From a bacterium (GTDB lineage: Bacteria > Armatimonadota > Fimbriimonadia > Fimbriimonadales > Fimbriimonadaceae): DNA of 64,000 bases. The notes beneath the pieces are model-generated. The model did no database searches. It was not told the origin of the DNA and saw nothing but the letters and a program-made list of their open reading frames with translations. The position numbers and the translations under genes were made by a program. Numbering within the stretch: the first letter of the stretch is position 1; each line of letters begins with the position of its first letter. Shown piece after piece: positions 21,300-32,344 of this stretch. The stretch spans positions 1,178,001 to 1,242,000 of the forward strand of contig JAIXUN010000002.1 in the NCBI GenBank assembly GCA_027483535.1, read 5' to 3'.

Positions 21300-22085
21300 A
21301 TGCAGAAACTCTTAGCTCAATATCGCGCAAGGTTGCCGTTCCACTCACAATGTCCTAGGTGTCAGGAGACTTACGCCCAGGGACACGATCGATGCACGCG
21401 CTGCGGGTTTCGGTTGCTCATAGAACCACGTTTATTCAGATCGGCTCGGGTAATAGTCGCTTGGGCATATGTGGTTCCGCCAGCACTGTTTATCTTTTCC
21501 TTAAACTGGGCATTGCTAGCCTTTGCGCTCTACGAATTCAAGAGTCATTACGGAATCAGGTTGTGGGTTAACATGCCTGCAATGGTCGATCTGGCCCTCC
21601 CACCGCTCATCTCGTTGGGCGCCCTTAGTCTCCTTTTGCCAACCTGGTACGCGGTAATCCTTAAGGCCGTAAACACCAAAGTTAGAACGAGAAAGCAAGT
21701 GCAGAATCCGGCTTGCGAATGCTCGATCTGCCGATGTGCGTTCAAAAAGCGAGATAAGTTTTGCACCGTGTGCGGCAACCGATTAAAGGCCCAGCCAAAG
21801 CGTGCTCGGCGAACTCGAAACTTAGCTCTCCTGGTGGCTTTCTTTTGTAGTCTGCCACTATCGGCGATGTTCTTCCCCTGGGTAATTGCCTTCTGTATAC
21901 ACCCTGAAGGTTTCTTAAATCCTGGGGCTCCGCATCGTGAAGTCACAAACCCGTTCTTTGAGGAGTGCCTGTGGTGGCTCTCCGGGGTACTCACGGTCAT
22001 GCTGTTCCAATCGTTCTATTTCTACGCGATCTTTCTTCGAGAGACCGACGAACCTGTCTTGACTCGACCCCTCAAATCCGCCTAA
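21300..22085 (+). CDS. Membrane protein with two zinc ribbons
   Basis: 261 residues. Zinc ribbon 1 is near the N-terminus (CPRCQETYAQGHDRCTRCG) and zinc ribbon 2 in the middle (CSICRCAFKKRDKFCTVCG). Both have the spacing C-x2-C-x10-C-x2-C. Two hydrophobic helices lie between them and two after, so both ribbons are probably on the cytoplasmic side. It lies 67 bp upstream of the radical SAM gene and uses the same ribbon architecture as the array at 24399-27405, so it probably belongs to the same locus. No function is known. Confidence 0.75.
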   Translation: MQKLLAQYRARLPFHSQCPRCQETYAQGHDRCTRCGFRLLIEPRLFRSARVIVAWAYVVPPALFIFSLNWALLAFALYEFKSHYGIRLWVNMPAMVDLALPPLISLGALSLLLPTWYAVILKAVNTKVRTRKQVQNPACECSICRCAFKKRDKFCTVCGNRLKAQPKRARRTRNLALLVAFFCSLPLSAMFFPWVIAFCIHPEGFLNPGAPHREVTNPFFEECLWWLSGVLTVMLFQSFYFYAIFLRETDEPVLTRPLKSA

Positions 22086-22152: not shown

Positions 22153-23700
22153 ATGTCCTTATCTCCCCGACCCTACACCATAGAAGAGTACACGCGGACG
22201 GTTTGCCCCCTCTGCGCCGCCGAAGCGCCGCTCACCAGTGCTGACGAGACGTTCATCGACGGAATGCTTGTTTCGCACGGAGGCTCCATTTGGATGCGCC
22301 GATGGTGCCCCAAGCACGGGGCGACCGAATCGATCTACGAAGAGGACGCCGACCTTTGGCGAAGTCGAAACGGATGGCAAACGCCGACTTTGGAGATCAT
22401 TCCAGATCGACCGAACGGTGCCAGAAGCTTCCCGGCGGGATACCGCGAGGGACTGCCCGCCTCGCACGGACAGCACACCTGCATCCTGCTCCTCAACGTC
22501 ACTGAGAACTGCAACTACAGTTGCCCCACCTGCTACGCCACCGCGTTGCCGCCGGGCGCAGAGCAGGTGACCTACCCAACTCGGGAGGAGGTGCTGCATA
22601 CGCTGGACACCATGATTGCACGAGAGAAGGGAAGAGTGAACGTGGTGATGATCTCCGGCGGGGAACCGACCGTCCGCAAGGATATCGAGAGTCTGCTGGA
22701 AGATATCTTCACCCGCTCGATTACCCGGGTGATGTTGAACACCAACGGTCGACGCCTTGCAAAAGACGACCGTTTCTTAGACTTCCTCAAGAAACATCGA
22801 GACAAGGTAGAGGTGTATCTCCAGTTCGATGGCGTGACTGCCGAGCCGTACAAGACCCTTCGGGGGGAAGACGTTCTGGAGGAAAAACTCACCGTCCTGA
22901 ATCGACTATCTGGGGCGGGCATTTTCACAACCCTGGTGGTGACCGTTGCAGAAGGGGTGAACGAGGATCAACTCGGGGAGATCGCCAAACTCGGAATGGA
23001 CACCCCTTACTGCGCGGGTCTCGCCCTTCAGCCGGTTTTCGGATCGGGGCGCAACAGTGGCGTGAACGGACAAACGCGAATTACTCCCACGGGCGTCGTT
23101 CGCCGACTGGAACAGCAACTTTCAGATCGATTCGCCGCGGCGGATTTCATCCCGCTTCCGTGTTCTCATAAAGACTGCTGCGACATCGGCTACTTCATTC
23201 GCACCGACTCCGGATGGCGGTCTTTGGTGCAACTCATTGGTCGAGACGAACTGAAGAATTGGATCCATTTGGTTTCGAACACGATCTCGTTCGAAAATGC
23301 GGGTGACGCCGTGAAGTCGTTGGTGAAACAGGGCACGCTCCAAAGAGTGTTCTCTGAACAGCAACGCTCCAGCGCGATCGCTCTTGCCAAAGACCTGCTC
23401 ACCATGTGCGAGTGCGTGCCTGGAGTCACCGAATTTCTGCTGCCGAAGCAACGCGCGGCAAGAATCGAGGAACTCGCTAAACGCACTTTTCGGGTGACGG
23501 TGAAGATGTTCATGGACGCCCACACCTTTCACGAGGCGCGGATTCGGCAATGTTGTGTGCACGTGGGGACCTTCGAGGAAGACCCTAGAAGGCACTCCTT
23601 CTGCTGGCGATGGATGTTCAGCGACGCCACCGATTTTCCGGGCTCAGCGAATGCGGCAAGATTCGCTGCGAAGGGAACGCCGCTTAAGGTGGTGCCATAG
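22153..23700 (+). CDS. Radical SAM enzyme of the MJ0619/Tes type
   Basis: 515 residues. The N-terminal Cys pairs TVCPLCAAE (Cys18, Cys21) and RRWCPKHG (Cys52) form a rubredoxin-like knuckle. QHTCILLLNVTENCNYSCPTCYA then carries the radical SAM cluster cysteines 120, 124 and 127, followed by MISGGEPT (168-173) for SAM binding. Extra cysteines in CSHKDCCD, MCECVPG and RQCCVHVGTF suggest auxiliary Fe-S clusters. This arrangement is that of COG1964 proteins, which include archaeal tetraether synthase Tes and bacterial enzymes proposed to join lipid tails. Here it probably acts on membrane lipids; that is inference. Three bp separate it from the Lgt-like gene. Confidence 0.85.
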   Translation: MSLSPRPYTIEEYTRTVCPLCAAEAPLTSADETFIDGMLVSHGGSIWMRRWCPKHGATESIYEEDADLWRSRNGWQTPTLEIIPDRPNGARSFPAGYREGLPASHGQHTCILLLNVTENCNYSCPTCYATALPPGAEQVTYPTREEVLHTLDTMIAREKGRVNVVMISGGEPTVRKDIESLLEDIFTRSITRVMLNTNGRRLAKDDRFLDFLKKHRDKVEVYLQFDGVTAEPYKTLRGEDVLEEKLTVLNRLSGAGIFTTLVVTVAEGVNEDQLGEIAKLGMDTPYCAGLALQPVFGSGRNSGVNGQTRITPTGVVRRLEQQLSDRFAAADFIPLPCSHKDCCDIGYFIRTDSGWRSLVQLIGRDELKNWIHLVSNTISFENAGDAVKSLVKQGTLQRVFSEQQRSSAIALAKDLLTMCECVPGVTEFLLPKQRAARIEELAKRTFRVTVKMFMDAHTFHEARIRQCCVHVGTFEEDPRRHSFCWRWMFSDATDFPGSANAARFAAKGTPLKVVP

Positions 23701-23703
23701 ACC

Positions 23704-24402
23704 ATGTCCGGCGGAGCCCTTTTAACGGCTGGGGAAGCGTTCACGGCACTGGGCTATTTGGTGGGGGCGCTGGTTTTCTACATCGCTGCCAAAGAGCGCA
23801 AACTCGCCACCGACGGGATGCAGACGCTTGCTTTGGTCGGCTTTGCGGCGGGGATTCTTGGGGCGAAGGTCACCCAATATGTCTTTTCGGGCGGGGAAGG
23901 CGGAAGTCTCCTTGCTAGTGGTCGGGCTCTGCTTGGAGGCGTGGTTTTCGGGTGGCTCGGCGTTGAGATCGCCAAACGCCGGATGGGAATTCGTCGATCC
24001 ACCGGAGACCTTTTCGCTTTGGCGCTTCCGGCCGGAGAGGCGGTGGGTCGAATTGGATGCTTCCTCAATCCGTGCTGCATCGGCACCAAATGCGATCTCC
24101 CCTGGGCGGTGAATCAGGTTGGTGAGCTTCGGCATCCGGTGCAGCTCTATTCGGCGGCAGTGTCGGCCGTGTTGTTCGCTTTTCTGTGGATCAGGCGGAA
24201 GTCGTTTCCGCAAGAAGGCGACCTTTTTCGGCTATACCTGGTGCTTTTCGGCCTCTCGCGGTTTGGGTTGGAATTCTTGCGAGACGGCAAGCCCGTCTGG
24301 CTTGGGCTCTCAATGATGCAGTTGTTCTGTCTGGAACTGGTCGTCAGCGCGGTGATCTGGCAGATGGTGCGGAATCGGCGACTGCGACAGGAGGCGGTGT
24401 GA
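23704..24402 (+). CDS. Prolipoprotein diacylglyceryl transferase-like protein
   Basis: 232 residues with about seven membrane helices. Lgt hallmarks are present: GRIGCFLNPCC matches the Lgt signature GRxGNFxN with substitutions, RHPVQLYSA matches the RHPxQLYE region, and LSRFGLEFLRDG matches the C-terminal arginine motif. The altered signature and short length suggest a paralogue of true Lgt that may handle a different diacylglyceryl donor or acceptor. It follows the radical SAM gene by 3 bp and overlaps the first zinc-ribbon gene (GTGA), so all three are probably translated from one mRNA. Confidence 0.82.
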   Translation: MSGGALLTAGEAFTALGYLVGALVFYIAAKERKLATDGMQTLALVGFAAGILGAKVTQYVFSGGEGGSLLASGRALLGGVVFGWLGVEIAKRRMGIRRSTGDLFALALPAGEAVGRIGCFLNPCCIGTKCDLPWAVNQVGELRHPVQLYSAAVSAVLFAFLWIRRKSFPQEGDLFRLYLVLFGLSRFGLEFLRDGKPVWLGLSMMQLFCLELVVSAVIWQMVRNRRLRQEAV

Positions 24403-24668
24403 CGCGGTGTCCAAAATGTGGATGCGAGGAAGATTACAAGAGATCGACGTGCCCGAAATGTGGCTACATCCCACGACTCGGCAACATTTCCTCTCTCTGG
24501 AACTCGTGGATCCTCCTATGGATTTCATTTCCCGTAAGTGCTCTGATTGCATTCATTTATTGTTACATCGCGAATATTGATCTTCTTTGGGTGTTGGTTG
24601 TGCCATCTCTAATTGGTTTTTGCATACTACGACTCCGGTCGGTGGTTGGACATCGCGAGGTTGAGTGA
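24399..24668 (+). CDS. Zinc-ribbon small membrane protein, array member 1
   Basis: 89 residues starting at GTG 24399, overlapping the Lgt-like stop (GTGA). Ribbon CPKCGCEEDYKRSTCPKCG has cysteines at residues 4, 7, 18 and 21. Two hydrophobic helices follow (SWILLWISFPVSALIAFIY and LLWVLVVPSLIGFCIL), and then a short basic tail. The start is fixed by the ribbon and the overlap; the frame upstream to 24186 lies inside the Lgt-like gene. Function unknown. Confidence 0.8.
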   Translation: MTRCPKCGCEEDYKRSTCPKCGYIPRLGNISSLWNSWILLWISFPVSALIAFIYCYIANIDLLWVLVVPSLIGFCILRLRSVVGHREVE

Positions 24669-24740
24669 TGAATAGTAGGGTGAAGGCTATAGGACGTCGT
24701 GGTCTGGAAAGAATGCGACTACTCCGTGGAGGGAAGAAAA

Positions 24741-25112
24741 GTGAGCCGAGGTAGGTGCCCTAACTGTGGATTCTCTGAGTATAACGCCCGCTCAGTTTGT
24801 CCTAACTGCGGCTATACCGACACCCAAGAGAATACTCGCACCCCCCTTTGGCTTCGACTGGGAGTTGGTCTCATCACTTTCCTCATGGGTGCGTTTGGTT
24901 CGTGCGTGATTTCTCTAGCATTTGCAAATATGATTGGGAAATTCTTCATGCCCGTCATGGTTCTGGGCGGTGTGGCGATCGCCATAGTTGTAGATTTCGT
25001 TCTAGTTAATCTCCGAACGTACAAACCGGTTTTGCCGGATAACGACATCCGATTGGCTCCGCCGGAAGATCGAAATCAACGCGCTCCTAAACGGGAAGGA
25101 GCGGACGAGTGA
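24741..25112 (+). CDS. Zinc-ribbon small membrane protein, array member 2
   Basis: 123 residues from GTG 24741, preceded by GGAGGG at good spacing. Ribbon CPNCGFSEYNARSVCPNCG, then two helices (LGVGLITFLMGAFGSCVISL and FMPVMVLGGVAIAIVVDFVL), then a cytoplasmic tail ending VLPDNDIRLAPPEDR plus charged residues. The tail is nearly identical in DNA to that of the next member, showing a recent duplication. The stop overlaps the next start by 4 bp. Confidence 0.82.
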   Translation: MSRGRCPNCGFSEYNARSVCPNCGYTDTQENTRTPLWLRLGVGLITFLMGAFGSCVISLAFANMIGKFFMPVMVLGGVAIAIVVDFVLVNLRTYKPVLPDNDIRLAPPEDRNQRAPKREGADE

Positions 25113-25477
25113 GCCGGGAGAAGTGTCCAAACTGCGGCTACAACGGTCCCTACAAGCGCGCAGTGTGTCCTAACTGCGGCTTTGGTTCCAGCCAAGACCT
25201 CTACAAACTCCCTCTTTGGCTCAGGTTGATCTTAGGAACCTTTATGTTCGGAATCGGTGCCTTTGGAACTTGCCTGGCGTGCATCCCGTTCGTCTCTAAT
25301 TTGGGACCATTTTTCTTGCCCGGTATCGTTATAGGCGGAGGTTTGATTGCATATGGGGCCGACCGTACATTGTTTCTTTTTCGTCCGCCAAAGCGTGTCC
25401 TTCCGGATAACGATATCCGATTGGCTCCGCCGGAGGACCGACGAGACAGTGACTCTAATGCAAAGGGAGACAAATGA
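25109..25477 (+). CDS. Zinc-ribbon small membrane protein, array member 3
   Basis: 122 residues, GTG start coupled to member 2 by GTGA. Ribbon CPNCGYNGPYKRAVCPNCG, helices LRLILGTFMFGIGAFGTCLA and FFLPGIVIGGGLIAYGA, and tail VLPDNDIRLAPPEDRR shared with member 2. Both end in acidic and basic residues. It is the closest paralogue of member 2. The next start overlaps by 4 bp (ATGA). Confidence 0.82.
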   Translation: MSREKCPNCGYNGPYKRAVCPNCGFGSSQDLYKLPLWLRLILGTFMFGIGAFGTCLACIPFVSNLGPFFLPGIVIGGGLIAYGADRTLFLFRPPKRVLPDNDIRLAPPEDRRDSDSNAKGDK

Positions 25478-25812
25478 GCCATTGTTATCACTGCAAAACT
25501 CCCGTTGGGTTGGATACTCTCCGATGCCCAAACTGTGGGATAAAACTTCGGAGTTCTCGATCTGAGATCTATAAGATTATTCTGGGAGTGATCTTCCTTG
25601 AATTGTTTTCGTGTGGAGTGGTTGGCTGTGGCTGTGATGTCATGAATTCACTATCAATGGATCCAGAAGACCTGCATTTCCGAGCCCTGTTTCCAGGTTT
25701 AACCATCCTGCTCACACTTGTTGTGGTTGCCTGGCACGCACTTGGAGAGTATCGAATTCGTAGGTGCCAATACATTACTGAGAACATGTCCAAACAAGAG
25801 GTAGAGGAATGA
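25474..25812 (+). CDS. Zinc-ribbon small membrane protein, array member 4
   Basis: 112 residues, ATG coupled to member 3 by ATGA. The ribbon CYHCKTPVGLDTLRCPNCG (cysteines 4, 7, 18, 21) is followed by a basic stretch, then helix IILGVIFLELFSCGVVGCGC with three further cysteines, an acidic loop, a second helix (LFPGLTILLTLVVVAWHAL) and a Lys/Glu tail. It is the most divergent member; the extra cysteines in the first helix are not seen in others. Coupled to member 5 by ATGA. Confidence 0.8.
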   Translation: MSHCYHCKTPVGLDTLRCPNCGIKLRSSRSEIYKIILGVIFLELFSCGVVGCGCDVMNSLSMDPEDLHFRALFPGLTILLTLVVVAWHALGEYRIRRCQYITENMSKQEVEE

Positions 25813-26204
25813 CTTGTCCTAACTGCGGTGCTCAAGTTTCATACATCCGATCTCAATGCCAGAATTGCAGCAGATTGGAGTTGGCAAAGGGGAACCCGCC
25901 GTCTGGATGCGCACGGGCCGTTGTCGCAGTTTTCCTGTTCGGAACAGGTTTTATTACCACTGCGGTGCTCCTATACGCGGGACTTGATACGTTCAACAAT
26001 CTCCTCTTGGGTCTTTCAATCGCAGTGGGGGTGACTCTGATGGTTTTTGTCGATACGATTTGGATGCGGTCCTGGAACTCTCGTTCCACATTTGGAAAGA
26101 GGTTGTCTCGCAAGTTGGTTAGCAACGATAAACTCGCATCCGAGACCGAGACCGAGACCGAGGCCGCTGAAGCGAACCCAGCTAAAGAAGAGGTTGTTGT
26201 ATGA
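25809..26204 (+). CDS. Zinc-ribbon small membrane protein, array member 5
   Basis: 131 residues. Ribbon MTCPNCGAQVSYIRSQCQNCS (Cys 3, 6, 17, 20), linker with NPPSGCARA, two helices (VVAVFLFGTGFITTAVLLYAG and LLLGLSIAVGVTLMVFV) and a long cytoplasmic tail containing a Glu-Thr repeat from GAGACC triplet pairs. NPPSGCAR also occurs in member 6, so they are sister copies. It starts and ends in ATGA overlaps. Confidence 0.82.
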   Translation: MTCPNCGAQVSYIRSQCQNCSRLELAKGNPPSGCARAVVAVFLFGTGFITTAVLLYAGLDTFNNLLLGLSIAVGVTLMVFVDTIWMRSWNSRSTFGKRLSRKLVSNDKLASETETETEAAEANPAKEEVVV

Positions 26205-26605
26205 CTTGCCCAAATTGCGGATTTGTTCACGACTACGTTCGCGGCCGATGCCCTAAATGCGGGCTACAAAACATCCCCGATGGGAAGCCTCCTTCGGGCT
26301 GCGCTCGCATTGGAATGGGTTGCTTTTTCTTTCCCATTGGTGCAATTGGCTCGTGCATCGCACTCTCTTCGACCCCGGGGCCTTGGTCCGGATTTGTCCT
26401 CATTGGCTCGCTTGTCGGCGGGATACTTGCCGTTTGGGCGGCCGATAACTATGTTTTTTTCAAGGCAGAAAAAAATGCCAAGGCCAAAGAATTACAACTC
26501 GAAGCTATCCGCAAAGAGAGAGAGCGGATGGACGGATTAGGGTCTCAGGCACCTGCTGGCGACAAGAATGATCAATCTCCACCTGAGGGGGCTGACAATC
26601 CTTAA
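26201..26605 (+). CDS. Zinc-ribbon small membrane protein, array member 6
   Basis: 134 residues. Ribbon MTCPNCGFVHDYVRGRCPKCG, then GKPPSGCARIG, helices GCFFFPIGAIGSCIALSS and FVLIGSLVGGILAVWAAD, and then a charged, probably coiled-coil tail (KAEKNAKAKELQLEAIRKERE) and an acidic end. It has the longest tail of the set. The ATG is coupled to member 5. A 48-bp gap with a vestigial GTGAGCCGGGA start-like sequence separates it from member 7. Confidence 0.82.
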   Translation: MTCPNCGFVHDYVRGRCPKCGLQNIPDGKPPSGCARIGMGCFFFPIGAIGSCIALSSTPGPWSGFVLIGSLVGGILAVWAADNYVFFKAEKNAKAKELQLEAIRKERERMDGLGSQAPAGDKNDQSPPEGADNP

Positions 26606-26653
26606 ACAACTTGAGGGAGTAATGGTGAGCCGGGATAAGGAAGTGAGGCAAAC

Positions 26654-26941
26654 ATGACCTGCCCGAAATGTGGATTTACCCACCAATACGTTCGCGAAAC
26701 TTGCCCACGCTGCGGAGCCAGTGATGCGTACGAGGAGTATCCGCCTTCAAGGAGAACCAGGATCGCCGTCGGTTGCTTCGTATTCGCTCTGGGCTTTAGT
26801 GGCGCACGTTCCATCCTTTTCGGCGAGCCGGGAGAAACTGCCTTATCGGTACTTACTGGAATCATCGTTGGCTCCCTGTGCGCTTTTGGATTCGATAAAT
26901 TCCTTTGCGGACCCTCGGCGCGCAAAAGGAAACGACCCTGA
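26654..26941 (+). CDS. Zinc-ribbon small membrane protein, array member 7
   Basis: 95 residues. Ribbon MTCPKCGFTHQYVRETCPRCG, linker YPPSRRTR, helices IAVGCFVFALGFSGARSILF and ALSVLTGIIVGSLCAFGF, and a short basic end (RKRKRP). Its ribbon is most like those of members 6 and 8. It is preceded by AAGGAAG-type purines. After its stop, about 100 bp without a convincing gene leads to the next member. Confidence 0.78.
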   Translation: MTCPKCGFTHQYVRETCPRCGASDAYEEYPPSRRTRIAVGCFVFALGFSGARSILFGEPGETALSVLTGIIVGSLCAFGFDKFLCGPSARKRKRP

Positions 26942-27039
26942 AACGAAATGCGTTCAGATGAGCACGGATGGTCAAGCGTCCCCTAGGGAGACCAAGTCGA
27001 AGCAGAACGAATTGTAGTGAAAAGGAGAAGAGGATAAAC

Positions 27040-27405
27040 ATGACCTGCCCGAACTGCGGATTTGTGCACGAATACGTCCGGGATCGGTGTCCACAGTGCG
27101 GGCTGTCTGGCTCAATGGAAACGACAAAACCCTCCGATGGCGCCCGGTTCGCGGTTGGATGCACGGTCTTTCCGCTTGGGTTCTTCGGATCCTGCCTGCT
27201 CTTGTCGAACTTCGCGGTTCCTTACCGTATCGGGGTTTCCGTGGGATGGATCGTTGGGACCCTTATTGTTTGGAAGGTGGATCAAGTCTTTGTGAGGAAG
27301 TTCTTAGAAAAGCGGCGGGCTCGCCTTGAATCGAAACTCCGAAAACCCACGCCCGGTCCCGAGCAGAACTCTCGTCCTAACGAGCAAAATCCGGGAGACG
27401 CATGA
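27040..27405 (+). CDS. Zinc-ribbon small membrane protein, array member 8 by count
   Basis: 121 residues from ATG 27040, preceded by AAAAGGAGAAGAGG. Ribbon MTCPNCGFVHEYVRDRCPQCG is almost the same as member 6. Two helices follow (GCTVFPLGFFGSCLLLSNFAV and IGVSVGWIVGTLIVWKV) and then a basic tail. In this numbering positions 1-7 end at 26941 and this is the last ribbon protein of the run. The frame upstream to 26968 adds nothing conserved. It is coupled to the next gene by ATGA. Confidence 0.82.
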   Translation: MTCPNCGFVHEYVRDRCPQCGLSGSMETTKPSDGARFAVGCTVFPLGFFGSCLLLSNFAVPYRIGVSVGWIVGTLIVWKVDQVFVRKFLEKRRARLESKLRKPTPGPEQNSRPNEQNPGDA

Positions 27406-27704
27406 GCAAAAAAGGACGAGAAGTTCCCTTCTTGGAAGAACAGATGGAAGTTGAAACTCCTAAAGATGCCGGTCAGAAGGATGCTTGGGAGAGTCTCGCC
27501 TTTCAGTTCTGCAAAATAGCGACCTTCGCGCTGGTCTTCCAGAAGTACACATTCTTCGCCGCGACGGTTCTTGCCGCGCTCACCTATTGGTATGTCTTTT
27601 TGCGCGGAGTCAAAACCACTCGCTGCGTGCTCAAAAAGCCGCTCATAGTTGCCATTTTTTGGACGCTCATCGCCCCGATCGCGGCCTACTTCACTTTTCG
27701 TTAG
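27402..27704 (+). CDS. Hypothetical two-helix membrane protein after the zinc-ribbon array
   Basis: 100 residues, with ATG overlapping the last ribbon gene by 4 bp. It has no zinc ribbon. An acidic N-terminal cytoplasmic part is followed by two hydrophobic segments (TFFAATVLAALTYWYVFL and LIVAIFWTLIAPIAAYFTF). It is translationally coupled to the array and therefore probably part of the same system. Family not recognised. Confidence 0.7.
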   Translation: MSKKGREVPFLEEQMEVETPKDAGQKDAWESLAFQFCKIATFALVFQKYTFFAATVLAALTYWYVFLRGVKTTRCVLKKPLIVAIFWTLIAPIAAYFTFR

Positions 27705-27753
27705 AGGCCAGAACGTCACCGCACGTAGCAAACATTGACAACCCCGCTGGAGA

Positions 27754-28089
27754 ATGGACGAGATCAAAGACCTCGAAAACAACGGCTCGGACGAGCCGGT
27801 TAGTAATTACCAACGTGAAGCACCTGCACCCGAAGCTTCGGGCGAGCATCGGTGGCGAAAACCTGTCCGGGACTCCCTCATTCTGTTCCCGGCGGTGTTT
27901 ATCGCGTTTATTCTTAGCACGGCAATCACCGTTCCCTTATATGGCTTGGTAGAGCAGGTTCTCGGTGACTTGGGAATTCTCCTTGTGACTCTGCTGTGGC
28001 CAGCGGCGTTCCTGCTCACGATATCGATGGTTTACCGCCTGTTCCGATCCGATTCCTTCCAGATTCGAAAGCAGAAGAACCCTCGATGA
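27754..28089 (+). CDS. Hypothetical two-helix membrane protein, end of array operon
   Basis: 111 residues with a Shine-Dalgarno-like GGAGA just before the ATG. An acidic N-terminal 35 residues is followed by two helices (SLILFPAVFIAFILSTAITVPL and LGILLVTLLWPAAFLLTISMVY) and a basic tail. It has no zinc ribbon and no recognised family. It is the last plus-strand gene before convergent gcvT and probably the end of the transcription unit. Confidence 0.68.
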   Translation: MDEIKDLENNGSDEPVSNYQREAPAPEASGEHRWRKPVRDSLILFPAVFIAFILSTAITVPLYGLVEQVLGDLGILLVTLLWPAAFLLTISMVYRLFRSDSFQIRKQKNPR

Positions 28090-29213: not shown

Positions 29214-29467
29214 ATTGAAAGAAAGATTACCGGGTTGTCCTTCCGAGTCGCGTGAGATTGCGACGGGGAACGGCGCAAAGGATTATGCTTATAACACTTG
29301 CGTGTTTTTGGGGCAACTCCAAGGGGGCTGAAGCGTCAGAATCTCGCGAGCACCCAAAATGCGTTCGGAACTTCGAAGTCGGTCGGAAAAATCGGGTCGG
29401 TAAACTCTCCGCACGCGAGAGATCAGACATCCGTCCTTTCCGCATTGCGCACGCTCTTTCAAATACC

Positions 29468-30832
29468 ATGATCGCCTGTCCTAACTGCTCAACGCAAAAC
29501 ACGCTCGACAGCCTCTTCTGCCGACGTTGCGGTGCCGGTTTCAGCGAGGATTTGCTGAAAGAGGAGCAAGCCAAGCTTGAGGCCTCCGTTGCCAAAGGCA
29601 TGGATCTCCTGCATGACGGGGAAGTCTCGGAGGCATTCGTTATTGCCGAGGCGTCCATCCTTACCAACCCGGCTTATCCGCTTGGATACGCGCTCAAGGG
29701 AATGGTGCATGAGAAGCGTGGCGAACTTGCCCAGGCTCTGGATTGCTACGAGACGGTTGTTTCGCTCAACCCAGATTCGGCCATCGACCGCATCAAATTG
29801 AACCAACTTCGGACGGTTATTCAGAACCGAGCCAACCAGACTCCCGAACCCGATCGCAAGACGGCGGGAGTGATCGCCGTTGCCTCGGTGATTCTCTTCG
29901 CGGGAATCGGATGGGGGATTATCGAGCTTTCTAAAGCCGGAAAGTCGGAGCAGGTGTCCACGACCGCGGGTGATCGATTTGCCCAAAACGGGGGCATGGA
30001 TTCTTCCGGATTAGGTGCTAATCCGGGCGTCAACCAACCGCCTCAAAACGGCGTCGACCCAGCGGGCAAGGTCCCGAATCCTGCCGCCGCTCAGGGCAAC
30101 AATCAGCCCAACCCGGGAGACGTGCCTGCGGTTAGAAACGGCGAACCAAATCGAGGCTCGAACGAGCGAACGGGTTTTCCGGGCTCTGTTCCTAGGCCAA
30201 CCATCGAGGGCGAACTGCCGCCCGCAGAAGTGAAGATCACGGGCGATATTGGGCCGGGGTCTAATTCGAATCAAGGCGGTGGTTCTCGCGGCTCTAACCA
30301 AGGGTTTGGCAATCAAGGATCTGGCAACCAAGGCGGAGGCCAAACCAAGCCCCCGGTTGAAAATCCTGGGAAAGGTGGTCGAGACGCCGACCCCGAACCG
30401 GACATCAACCAGAAGTCGCGCAAAGATCCAGGCCGAATCGAGATTGTCCCCAGCGCGGGACAGAACACGGGTCCGGCACTCCCTGGTGGTGGCGCGGTAG
30501 TGCCCGATCGCGATCCTGATCCAAACACCGGCGATGGTCGAGGTCAAGAGAACTATCGCCGAATCGGGGATCAACAATATCAGTCGGGCAATTTAGAAAA
30601 CGCGGCAAAGAGCTACGAGCAAGCCCTAGCAGGCGGCGGTGATCGCGCCTCAATCTCCATGAGGCTCGGCGATGTCTACAAGCGACTGCGACGAAACGCC
30701 GATGCCGCAAACGCCTACCGAGGCGCAATTGAAGCTTACGAAGATCGACTGAAGAGAGGCGTGGGCGATGCCGACCAAACCAAGCAGACCCTTTCCCGGC
30801 TTCGTAGCTCGCTCAAGAGCGTGGGTGGCTAG
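29468..30832 (+). CDS. Zinc-ribbon / TPR membrane protein with low-complexity linker
   Basis: 454 residues from ATG 29468. The N-terminal ribbon MIACPNCSTQNTLDSLFCRRCG has the same C-x2-C-x10-C-x2-C spacing as the array upstream. TPR helices follow at about 30-110 (GYALKGMVHEKRGELAQALDCYETVVSLNP in pieces), then one membrane helix (AGVIAVASVILFAGIGWGIIEL), then a ~230-residue Gly/Asn/Pro-rich linker and a second TPR pair at the C-terminus (YQSGNLENAAKSYEQAL). The ribbon is probably cytoplasmic and the C-terminal TPRs periplasmic. The open frame to 29252 is not credible as coding. It leads a three-gene operon. Confidence 0.8.
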   Translation: MIACPNCSTQNTLDSLFCRRCGAGFSEDLLKEEQAKLEASVAKGMDLLHDGEVSEAFVIAEASILTNPAYPLGYALKGMVHEKRGELAQALDCYETVVSLNPDSAIDRIKLNQLRTVIQNRANQTPEPDRKTAGVIAVASVILFAGIGWGIIELSKAGKSEQVSTTAGDRFAQNGGMDSSGLGANPGVNQPPQNGVDPAGKVPNPAAAQGNNQPNPGDVPAVRNGEPNRGSNERTGFPGSVPRPTIEGELPPAEVKITGDIGPGSNSNQGGGSRGSNQGFGNQGSGNQGGGQTKPPVENPGKGGRDADPEPDINQKSRKDPGRIEIVPSAGQNTGPALPGGGAVVPDRDPDPNTGDGRGQENYRRIGDQQYQSGNLENAAKSYEQALAGGGDRASISMRLGDVYKRLRRNADAANAYRGAIEAYEDRLKRGVGDADQTKQTLSRLRSSLKSVGG

Positions 30833-30835
30833 CTT

Positions 30836-32344
30836 TTGAAAACCCGCGTTGGCAAATGGGTATCGGTCTTAGGACTCTGCGCGCTCGCGGCTATTTCGAG
30901 CGCGGCCAGACCTCGTCTGCTCATTGTCCAAGGCAAGGGTCTAGAAGCTGATCCGCCCCTAAACGTCACCATGGACGTTGCGCAGTTTCTAGACGAACAG
31001 GCGCGAGTGATGGCGGTGATCTACGGTCCCATCGATCCCGTTTTTCGAGCCGCCCAGAACGAGGGTCTGCTCAAAGACATTCCTGTTAAGCCAGACCTTG
31101 AGGCGGCTAAGAAAGTCGCCAAGGTGCTCCAGGCCGATTACGTTCTTTGGGTGGATGTCGAGGAAAAGTCGGAGCGGTTCCTTTCGGTTCACAAGCTCTA
31201 CAAAGGTGGCAAGGAAGTTTGGGCGAGCCAGTCGGAGCTCTCGGTGAAGGTCAAGAACCAATCCGACCGGATCAACGCCATTCAGTCTCTGGGGCGCACC
31301 ATTGCTACTGCACTAGAGTACGAACCTTTGAAGGAGTTGCCCTCTCTTGGCAAGGCATCCCCCAACGAAGCGCTGCCCGGCCAGCAGCCGATTAAACCCG
31401 TTGAAGGACCAGCCACGAATCCGACGGTGCCGGTCAACGAGTTGGTGGCTCAGGCGGAGCGATTTATCGAGGAAGGCAACTACCGAGCGGCGCTCCTTAC
31501 TTTGCGCGAAGCGGTGGACGTCGATCCGACCAGCGCCAAGGCGCGAGTCGCCCTCATTCGGCTTTACTCAAAAATGGGTCGACCCGCTTTGGCGATGCAA
31601 ACCGCCATGTCGGCTGCGGGAATTGTGAAGGACCCGGGCATGATGGTCGAAGTCGCCCGAGCCTTTGCCCTTGGCGGAAAGTACAACGAAGCAAGATCGC
31701 TTTTGAACGATGCCCTCATGCTCGCCCCGGATTCGGAGGAGATTCGAATTGCAATGGCGGAGCTTCTCATGGCAGAAGCCAATCCTGTCCAGGCTCTCGA
31801 TCATTTAAACGCGGCGGCGAAATCGGGCAAGAACGCGAGCGCTTTCGCGATGCGTGCTCTTTGTCGCGGATTGCTCGGAGGGGCGGACGGGGCCAAGCTC
31901 GACTACGCAAAATCGGTAGAACTCAGCGCCGAAGCTCCCAAACTCACGTACGAACGAGCCATGGCCATTCTCGACCGCGCGCTGGGCGGGGAAGGCGACC
32001 TCCTGCGAGGGCTTTTCCAGCGAGGAATTGTGCGCCGAGATTCTGTGGAAGTGAAAGACACCCTTGCCGCGCAGGAGCGATTTGCTCAGGCAACCCTTGC
32101 CATTGTTGAGGGGTGGGACAGAGCGGGTCGATACAACACTTCGCACGATCAACGAGTTCTGGCACTAAACTTGCTCCTTCAGTGTCTTACAGAATTCCGC
32201 ACTTACCTCGGAAGTGGTGACGAGCAAGATTTGGTCAATGCTCGATTAACCCTCGGAGAGGCACTTCGAGAATTGTCCGAAGCGAAGGCGGGGTTCGAGA
32301 AGGAACTCAGTGGCACTCAAGGAAGTAATTCAGCTCGCGTTTAG
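30836..32344 (+). CDS. Secreted TPR-repeat protein
   Basis: 502 residues from TTG 30836, only 3 bp after the preceding stop. A signal peptide (VSVLGLCALAAISSAARP) leads into an N-terminal domain resembling a periplasmic nucleotide-free alpha/beta fold (VLQADYVLWVDVEE), and then TPRs from about residue 200 (YRAALLTLREAVDVDPTSAKARVALIRLYSKMG; NEARSLLNDALMLAP). It is probably a periplasmic scaffold working with the preceding zinc-ribbon/TPR protein. The exact role is unknown. It overlaps the next gene by 35 bp. Confidence 0.78.
   Translation: MKTRVGKWVSVLGLCALAAISSAARPRLLIVQGKGLEADPPLNVTMDVAQFLDEQARVMAVIYGPIDPVFRAAQNEGLLKDIPVKPDLEAAKKVAKVLQADYVLWVDVEEKSERFLSVHKLYKGGKEVWASQSELSVKVKNQSDRINAIQSLGRTIATALEYEPLKELPSLGKASPNEALPGQQPIKPVEGPATNPTVPVNELVAQAERFIEEGNYRAALLTLREAVDVDPTSAKARVALIRLYSKMGRPALAMQTAMSAAGIVKDPGMMVEVARAFALGGKYNEARSLLNDALMLAPDSEEIRIAMAELLMAEANPVQALDHLNAAAKSGKNASAFAMRALCRGLLGGADGAKLDYAKSVELSAEAPKLTYERAMAILDRALGGEGDLLRGLFQRGIVRRDSVEVKDTLAAQERFAQATLAIVEGWDRAGRYNTSHDQRVLALNLLLQCLTEFRTYLGSGDEQDLVNARLTLGEALRELSEAKAGFEKELSGTQGSNSARV

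Follow-up and report, generated by a model that had tools for sequence, protein, structure and literature searches.

A conserved gene module linking a Tes-type radical SAM protein to an Lgt paralogue and small membrane proteins in Armatimonadota

Organization of the locus

The DNA analyzed here, hereafter the window, is a stretch of 64,000 nucleotides from contig JAIXUN010000002.1 (assembly GCA_027483535.1, positions 1,178,001 to 1,242,000) of an armatimonadotal soil bacterium related to Fimbriimonas, whose genome comprises 3.77 Mb in 4 contigs. Between window positions 22153 and 28089, 12 genes follow each other on the forward strand. They code for a radical S-adenosylmethionine (SAM) protein of the Tes superfamily, termed rSAM in the following, a paralogue of Lgt, eight zinc-ribbon proteins with two transmembrane (TM) segments each (Z1 to Z8) and two small membrane proteins that lack a ribbon, T1 and T2. 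Inspection of the reading frames and junctions revealed a largest gap of 98 bp and six overlaps of 4 bp. A preliminary description of this DNA had reported a run of genes in one direction with gaps under 100 bp and many 4-bp overlaps, composed of a Tes-like radical SAM gene of the COG1964 type, an Lgt-like gene, eight zinc-ribbon genes and two further membrane genes. This outline was confirmed in every part: by the frames and junctions themselves, by a sequence and fold match of rSAM to Tes over its full length, by the preserved core of Lgt, and by the presence of CxxC...CxxC and a hydrophobic hairpin in all eight Z proteins.

The partnership of rSAM with an Lgt paralogue is conserved in related genomes, survives gene reordering and recurs in distant bacteria, which is why the module probably represents an undescribed membrane-lipid or protein-lipidation pathway. 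No description of it was found in the open-access literature searched. A promoter scan of the array returned a single promoter-like match that was weak and below shuffle expectation, so that transcription as a single unit is not established.

The radical SAM protein

rSAM (22153..23700, 515 aa) matches the Pfam Radical_SAM domain (3.6e-21) and the zinc ribbon PF23545 (2e-9). Its best sequence match in the PDB, aligned over residues 3-337 and 436-484 (8.9e-40), is the tetraether lipid synthase Tes/GDGT-MAS (7tol/7tom), an enzyme that links the tails of archaeal membrane lipids through an sp3-sp3 carbon bond. Tes is also the only full-length fold match of the AlphaFold model (pLDDT 76), with a TM-score of 0.63 over 505 columns, compared to 214 columns for the runner-up. 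Shared with Tes (MJ0619, PDB 7TOL/7TOM) are the CxxC...CxxH rubredoxin-type site (C18/C21/C52/H55), the CxxxCxxC motif of the SAM cluster (C120/C124/C127), the C-terminal CC...FC cluster cysteines (C467/C468/C484) and the FMDAxxF motif. rSAM differs from Tes by the lack of the N-terminal cluster cysteines, by a lysine in place of Met439, by two additional cysteine motifs, namely CSHxxCC (C337/C342/C343) and, in most sequences, CxC (C419/C421), and by its constant Lgt-like and usual T1 neighbours.

Curated family models place the protein outside the described families. It reaches 200 bits against NF045702 (Tes), where 450 are required, and 230 bits against NF045646, the model of the radical SAM (seleno)protein TrsS, where 490 are required. 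TrsS is the top NCBIfam model for rSAM and its divergent relatives, but the score lies under half of the cut-off and no methyltransferase adjoins the window gene; the methyltransferase partner of TrsS was itself deduced from the loci of Mycolicibacterium vanbaalenii and a haloarchaeon and not from the curated definition. The window module contains no methyltransferase, and no such recurrent neighbour family was seen among the loci examined. TrsS was encountered in the literature as a table entry only, with no account of the module. Mss, the bacterial membrane-spanning lipid synthase, is proposed to share the catalytic architecture of Tes (PMC13274423); a curated model of Mss was not found. Judged by sequence and predicted fold, rSAM is Tes-like in architecture and, by the curated tests, neither Tes nor TrsS; its chemistry likely acts on lipids.

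Two other assignments were rejected. A selenoprotein with TGA read as selenocysteine, as in TrsS, was considered after one TGA had been flagged in open frames of two relatives (L010 and L012), but their rSAM reading frames (508 and 514 aa) run uninterrupted across all motifs. For a defence function, PADLOC returned no more than a match to the generic radical SAM core of viperin.

The Lgt-like protein and T1

The Lgt-like membrane protein (23704..24402, 232 aa) starts 3 bp behind rSAM. It contains a PF01790 domain (2.2e-33) and aligns at the profile level to the prolipoprotein diacylglyceryl transferase Lgt of Escherichia coli (PDB 5AZB) with 3.7e-21. The equivalents of R143, G154, R239 and E243, including the catalytic arginine pair, are kept as R116, G127, R186 and E190, as is the HPxQLY motif. 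The roles and the E. coli numbering of these residues, and of H103 and N146 discussed below, follow earlier Lgt studies. The protein departs from Lgt in being tied to the rSAM gene and in scoring 68 bits against TIGR00544, for which the cut-off is 118.9 bits. A separate Lgt encoded elsewhere in the genome passes this threshold with 125.8 bits, which would leave the window copy free for a special role.

T1 (27402..27704, 100 aa), which overlaps Z8 by 4 bp, is the last gene of the conserved module. It carries two invariant cysteines, C37 within AFxFCK and C75 within RC. Its predicted structure is poor (pLDDT 64, pTM 0.36). The best reading of T1 is that of an obligate small membrane subunit of the module.

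Conservation of the module in Armatimonadota

Of 60 close relatives, 14 encode an rSAM orthologue with 58-67% identity, either full-length or truncated by a contig end. A profile search across 291 genomes of the phylum retrieved the protein in 25 genomes, plus 22 with more divergent members. Conservation of the gene order in relatives, the check set by the preliminary description, was positive: in all 23 group-1 loci with enough sequence (window counted), an Lgt-like gene lies downstream of rSAM on the same strand, either immediately after it or separated from it by a ribbon gene or by two inserted genes. In an Abditibacteriaceae relative, the inserted genes code for an AAA_21 ATPase and a DUF4276 (OLD-like) protein (L056:10608-12439, same as L096) and have the appearance of a defence-type pair acquired by the operon.

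T1 is present in 17 of these 23 loci, and several of the remaining ones stop at a contig edge; in genome G005, T1 lies next to a ribbon gene where a different contig ends. Strong matches to a T1 profile were obtained in 36 of the 291 genomes, 32 of which also encode rSAM (T1 only, 4; rSAM only, 15; neither, 240; Fisher p 8e-27). In the four genomes with T1 only, the gene always lies on a short contig (6-15 kb); one of these contigs ends within an rSAM (L197), and two hold more ribbon arrays next to T1 (L194, L195). T2 and the double-ribbon gene upstream of rSAM recur in none of the relatives' loci. On the evidence of these gene orders, T2 probably stands outside the conserved module.

Two further subtypes show rearranged loci. 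In the divergent group 2, the Lgt-like gene comes first, followed by a ribbon gene, rSAM and T1 (L105, L109, L110, L113); in L106 this order is interrupted by extra genes. Two group-2 genomes contain an X-Pro dipeptidyl-peptidase (S15) gene between rSAM and T1 (L106:6947-8779, L107:7166-9166). In the third subtype, group 3 (L111, L112, L115), rSAM is followed by a four-TM protein resembling ICMT and phospholipid methyltransferases and then by the Lgt-like protein, with a DUF4395-type protein nearby. The ICMT/PEMT-like gene between rSAM and Lgt again points to a lipid context. The group-3 rSAMs (L111:8878-12201, L112, L115) keep the Tes N-cluster motif GCPYDCGLCPDH and have lost the C-terminal CC and FC.

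Occurrence outside the phylum

Outside Armatimonadota, plasmids of Mycobacterium avium (pS2b, L119) and M. branderi (L120) carry an Lgt-like gene, two genes for small proteins and rSAM in this order. In Nonomuraea gerenzanensis, a Pro-rich small membrane protein is followed by the Lgt-like protein, rSAM and a T1-like protein in which the two invariant cysteines are present, and a Bacteroidota plasmid carries the Lgt-rSAM pair alone. In contrast, the homologues of Mycolicibacterium vanbaalenii and a haloarchaeon are paired with a methyltransferase. In a tree, a branch with support 100/99 separates the rSAMs of groups 1 and 2 and the three Lgt-linked ones of Actinomycetota from Tes, the methyltransferase-linked proteins and group 3; on the latter side, Tes was included as two fragments and the long branches are uncertain. 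The small membrane proteins of the mycobacterial plasmids end in a conserved GxCTGLNP, with GICTGINP as the Nonomuraea counterpart (L118).

The zinc-ribbon proteins

All eight Z proteins consist of an N-terminal CxxC-x(10-13)-CxxC followed by two hydrophobic stretches that form a hairpin. Z1 (24399..24668, 89 aa) overlaps the Lgt-like gene by 4 bp and has no GxC in its first TM segment (TM1). After a gap of 30 bp follows Z2 (24699..25112, 137 aa; TM1 ...GAFGSC), which is 49% identical to Z3 (25109..25477, 122 aa; TM1 ...GAFGTC). The genes for Z3, Z4 (25474..25812, 112 aa; TM1 ...VVGCGC), Z5 (25809..26204, 131 aa; TM1 cysteine lost) and Z6 (26201..26605, 134 aa; TM1 ...FPIGAIGSC) each overlap the preceding one by 4 bp, and Z7 (26654..26941, 95 aa; TM1 cysteine lost, GFSGAR) and Z8 (27040..27405, 121 aa; TM1 ...FPLGFFGSC) stand behind gaps of 48 and 98 bp, respectively. 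An alternative, longer reading of Z8 from 26968 is probably wrong, because AAGGAG precedes the ATG at 27040. For seven of the eight copies, the best match is itself encoded in the window, Z4 being the only one with its best relative outside, which indicates that the array grew here by tandem duplication. The number of ribbon genes ranges from 1 to 8 per locus (8 in the window, one to about six in others); it is a lineage-specific expansion and not a conserved stoichiometry.

Ribbon proteins of the different loci have low overall similarity, yet TM1 contains a recurrent hP-x-G-x-x-G-[GAST]-C, a motif that is newly recognised here. The sequence G[GAST]C occurs in TM1 of 27 out of 44 ribbon proteins and in the second TM segment of none of the 44, compared to 3.1 +/- 1.7 in shuffled TM1 segments. 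It was found in 2 of 32 ribbon-TM proteins sampled from elsewhere in related genomes, a control set from which L169 was excluded since it adjoins T1 (p 7e-7). These p-values ignore the kinship of the ribbon proteins and overstate their independence; nevertheless, several families of the phylum share the pattern. Three further loci that had no part in defining the motif encode 10 ribbon proteins, 7 of which contain it (counted by eye). The G-[GAST]-Cys sequence appears lipobox-like and resembles the site modified by Lgt, and a simple lipoprotein scan flags several ribbon proteins alongside ordinary lipoproteins. In the actinobacterial loci, the ribbon proteins are replaced by Pro-rich small membrane proteins without a metal motif. 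Together with the lipobox-like cysteine, this replacement suggests that what counts is the membrane portion, and that the adjacent Lgt paralogue may use the ribbon proteins as substrates; a role as mere adaptors or redox partners fits less well.

Zinc-ribbon proteins are common in related genomes. Tandem two-TM ribbon proteins with GGGC and GGSC in TM1 are encoded outside the cluster in one relative (L159, G018:C2:4100-5800) and are perhaps a dispersed part of the array. Another recurrent zinc-ribbon family of Fimbriimonas relatives (L155, L158, L167, L174, L175) has a terminal single TM segment with WGIYI...GxxRxCG.

Possible functions of the module

Direct observations are the homologies, the residues kept or lost, the conserved partnership and the cysteine motif of TM1. 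Owing to the homology to Tes, the preserved Lgt core and the conservation of the module, a lipid- or lipoprotein-modifying function, as already proposed in the preliminary description, is the best guess. The further proposal that the ribbon proteins act in such a complex as membrane adaptors or redox partners received no positive evidence, and the TM1 cysteine and the actinobacterial replacement of the ribbon argue otherwise. Our preferred reading, to which we give about an even chance, is a conserved module for membrane-lipid modification and protein lipidation: its Tes-type enzyme would change the tails of lipids, and its Lgt paralogue would act on phosphatidylglycerol and on cysteines in the membrane.

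For such a module, we infer substrates, reaction, topology and order of steps as follows. rSAM would be a cytosolic, membrane-associated protein that directs Tes-like 5'-deoxyadenosyl radical chemistry at the hydrocarbon tails of phospholipids, and its C-terminal iron-sulfur cluster might hold or relay the carbon radical. In the membrane, the Lgt paralogue would bind phosphatidylglycerol and transfer or present its diacylglyceryl part. The N-terminal metal ribbon of the Z proteins would face the cytosol in a position to meet rSAM, and the lipobox-like cysteine would lie towards the distal end of TM1, the place at which Lgt enzymes act on cysteines. The ribbon proteins, multiplied in this lineage by tandem duplication, would most likely accept or carry the lipid, with T1 serving as the obligate small membrane subunit. 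A more specific and rather doubtful version is a protein-lipidation pathway, in which the Lgt paralogue adds diacylglyceryl to the TM cysteine of the ribbon proteins and rSAM couples its tail to another lipid or tail, so that the proteins are anchored via a cross-linked, possibly membrane-spanning lipid. If true, this would link Tes chemistry to protein lipidation as a new kind of membrane anchoring.

Several observations weigh against a lipid-modifying module with lipidated ribbon proteins. The cysteines that bind the N-terminal auxiliary [4Fe-4S] cluster of Tes (C73/C77/C80) are missing in all group-1 and in the three Lgt-linked actinobacterial rSAMs, and the positions of Met439 and Tyr459 are taken by Lys451 and by Val, Thr or Ser471. 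The ligands of the Tes clusters, including C73, C77 and C80, have been named, and the labile Met439 and Tyr459 are reported to be fully conserved across 1000 archaeal homologues (PMC9433317); since the M439A variant of Tes reportedly retains activity (PMC9433317), their replacement is compatible with a similar chemistry. The Lgt-like protein has Leu and Cys at the positions of E. coli H103 and N146. The main Lgt of the genome likewise lacks both equivalents, so that their loss is no argument against catalysis. On the side of the putative acceptors, the residues after the TM1 cysteine are hydrophobic, unlike in classical lipoproteins, and three of the eight window copies (Z1, Z5, Z7) have no TM1 cysteine. 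The group-2 ribbon proteins lack the motif despite adjoining an Lgt-like gene, and the small proteins of the mycobacteria and Nonomuraea present a cysteine in another context (GxCTG).

The main rival is plain membrane-spanning lipid synthesis, which we regard as possible though clearly less probable. Here, rSAM would join two phospholipid tails to a product of the diabolic-acid type, the Lgt-like protein would feed or remodel phosphatidylglycerol, and the small proteins would be unlipidated structural partners. The Tes homology and fold over the whole length of rSAM and its C-terminal CC...FC cysteines are in line with this, and for bacterial homologues of Tes and Mss, a coupling of fatty acids has been proposed or demonstrated (PMC8941075, PMC13274423). 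Mss homologues are also reported in Armatimonadota, in 7 of 13 metagenome-assembled genomes of one data set (PMC11868695). Such a synthase, however, leaves the TM1 cysteine motif and the constant Lgt paralogue unexplained, and the known Tes and Mss enzymes are reported to act singly. Neither Met439 and Tyr459 nor the ligands of the N-terminal cluster are conserved. Ether analogues of such lipids are unlikely, and an ether-lipid pathway via Ger/PlsA was rejected, given that a DUF2229 protein of this type is absent from the genome.

It seems unlikely that the ribbon proteins serve rSAM as membrane adaptors or rubredoxin-like electron carriers, the Lgt-like protein being its catalytic partner in the membrane. 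Radical SAM enzymes do need electrons and Tes itself contains rubredoxin-type iron (PMC9433317), and the ribbons weakly match RUBY_RBDX (0.002), zf-ChsH2 (7e-4) and DZR (0.0025). None of these matches reaches a curated cut-off, and zinc cannot be told from iron by them. The count of ribbon genes varies from locus to locus, a Pro-rich tail devoid of any metal motif stands in for the ribbon in the actinobacterial loci, and zinc-ribbon proteins are commonplace in these genomes. Peptide modification is improbable. In this reading, rSAM would act on the small membrane proteins themselves, forming for instance a carbon-sulfur link at cysteines of TM1 or T1, and the Lgt-like protein would provide a membrane scaffold. 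Small proteins in variable number beside a radical SAM gene do resemble precursor arrays, T1 has two invariant cysteines and the core domain is common to radical SAM peptide maturases, but these maturases match only that core, no SPASM domain was matched in rSAM, the sole structural match over its full length is to an enzyme that acts on lipids and has a hydrophobic tunnel (PMC9433317), and the catalytic Lgt residues are kept.

Tes homologues are carried by many bacteria, and membrane-spanning lipids from bacterial sources are used as climate proxies. The module defines a subfamily (CSHxxCC, Lys at the Met439 position, no Tes-type N-cluster) with fixed partners, namely the Lgt paralogue, T1 and small proteins with membrane cysteines, which makes its function directly testable.

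Flanking genes

Upstream of rSAM, at a distance of 67 bp, a gene absent from the preliminary description codes on the same strand for a double-zinc-ribbon protein with several TM segments (21300..22085); it is not conserved beside the module elsewhere. T2 (27754..28089, 111 aa), a two-TM protein that is present in no relative, follows T1 after a gap of 49 bp. Farther downstream, the gene at 29252-30832 codes for a zinc-ribbon protein that contains repeats as well as a long Gly/Asn/Pro-rich stretch, and a second repeat protein is encoded at 30836-32344.

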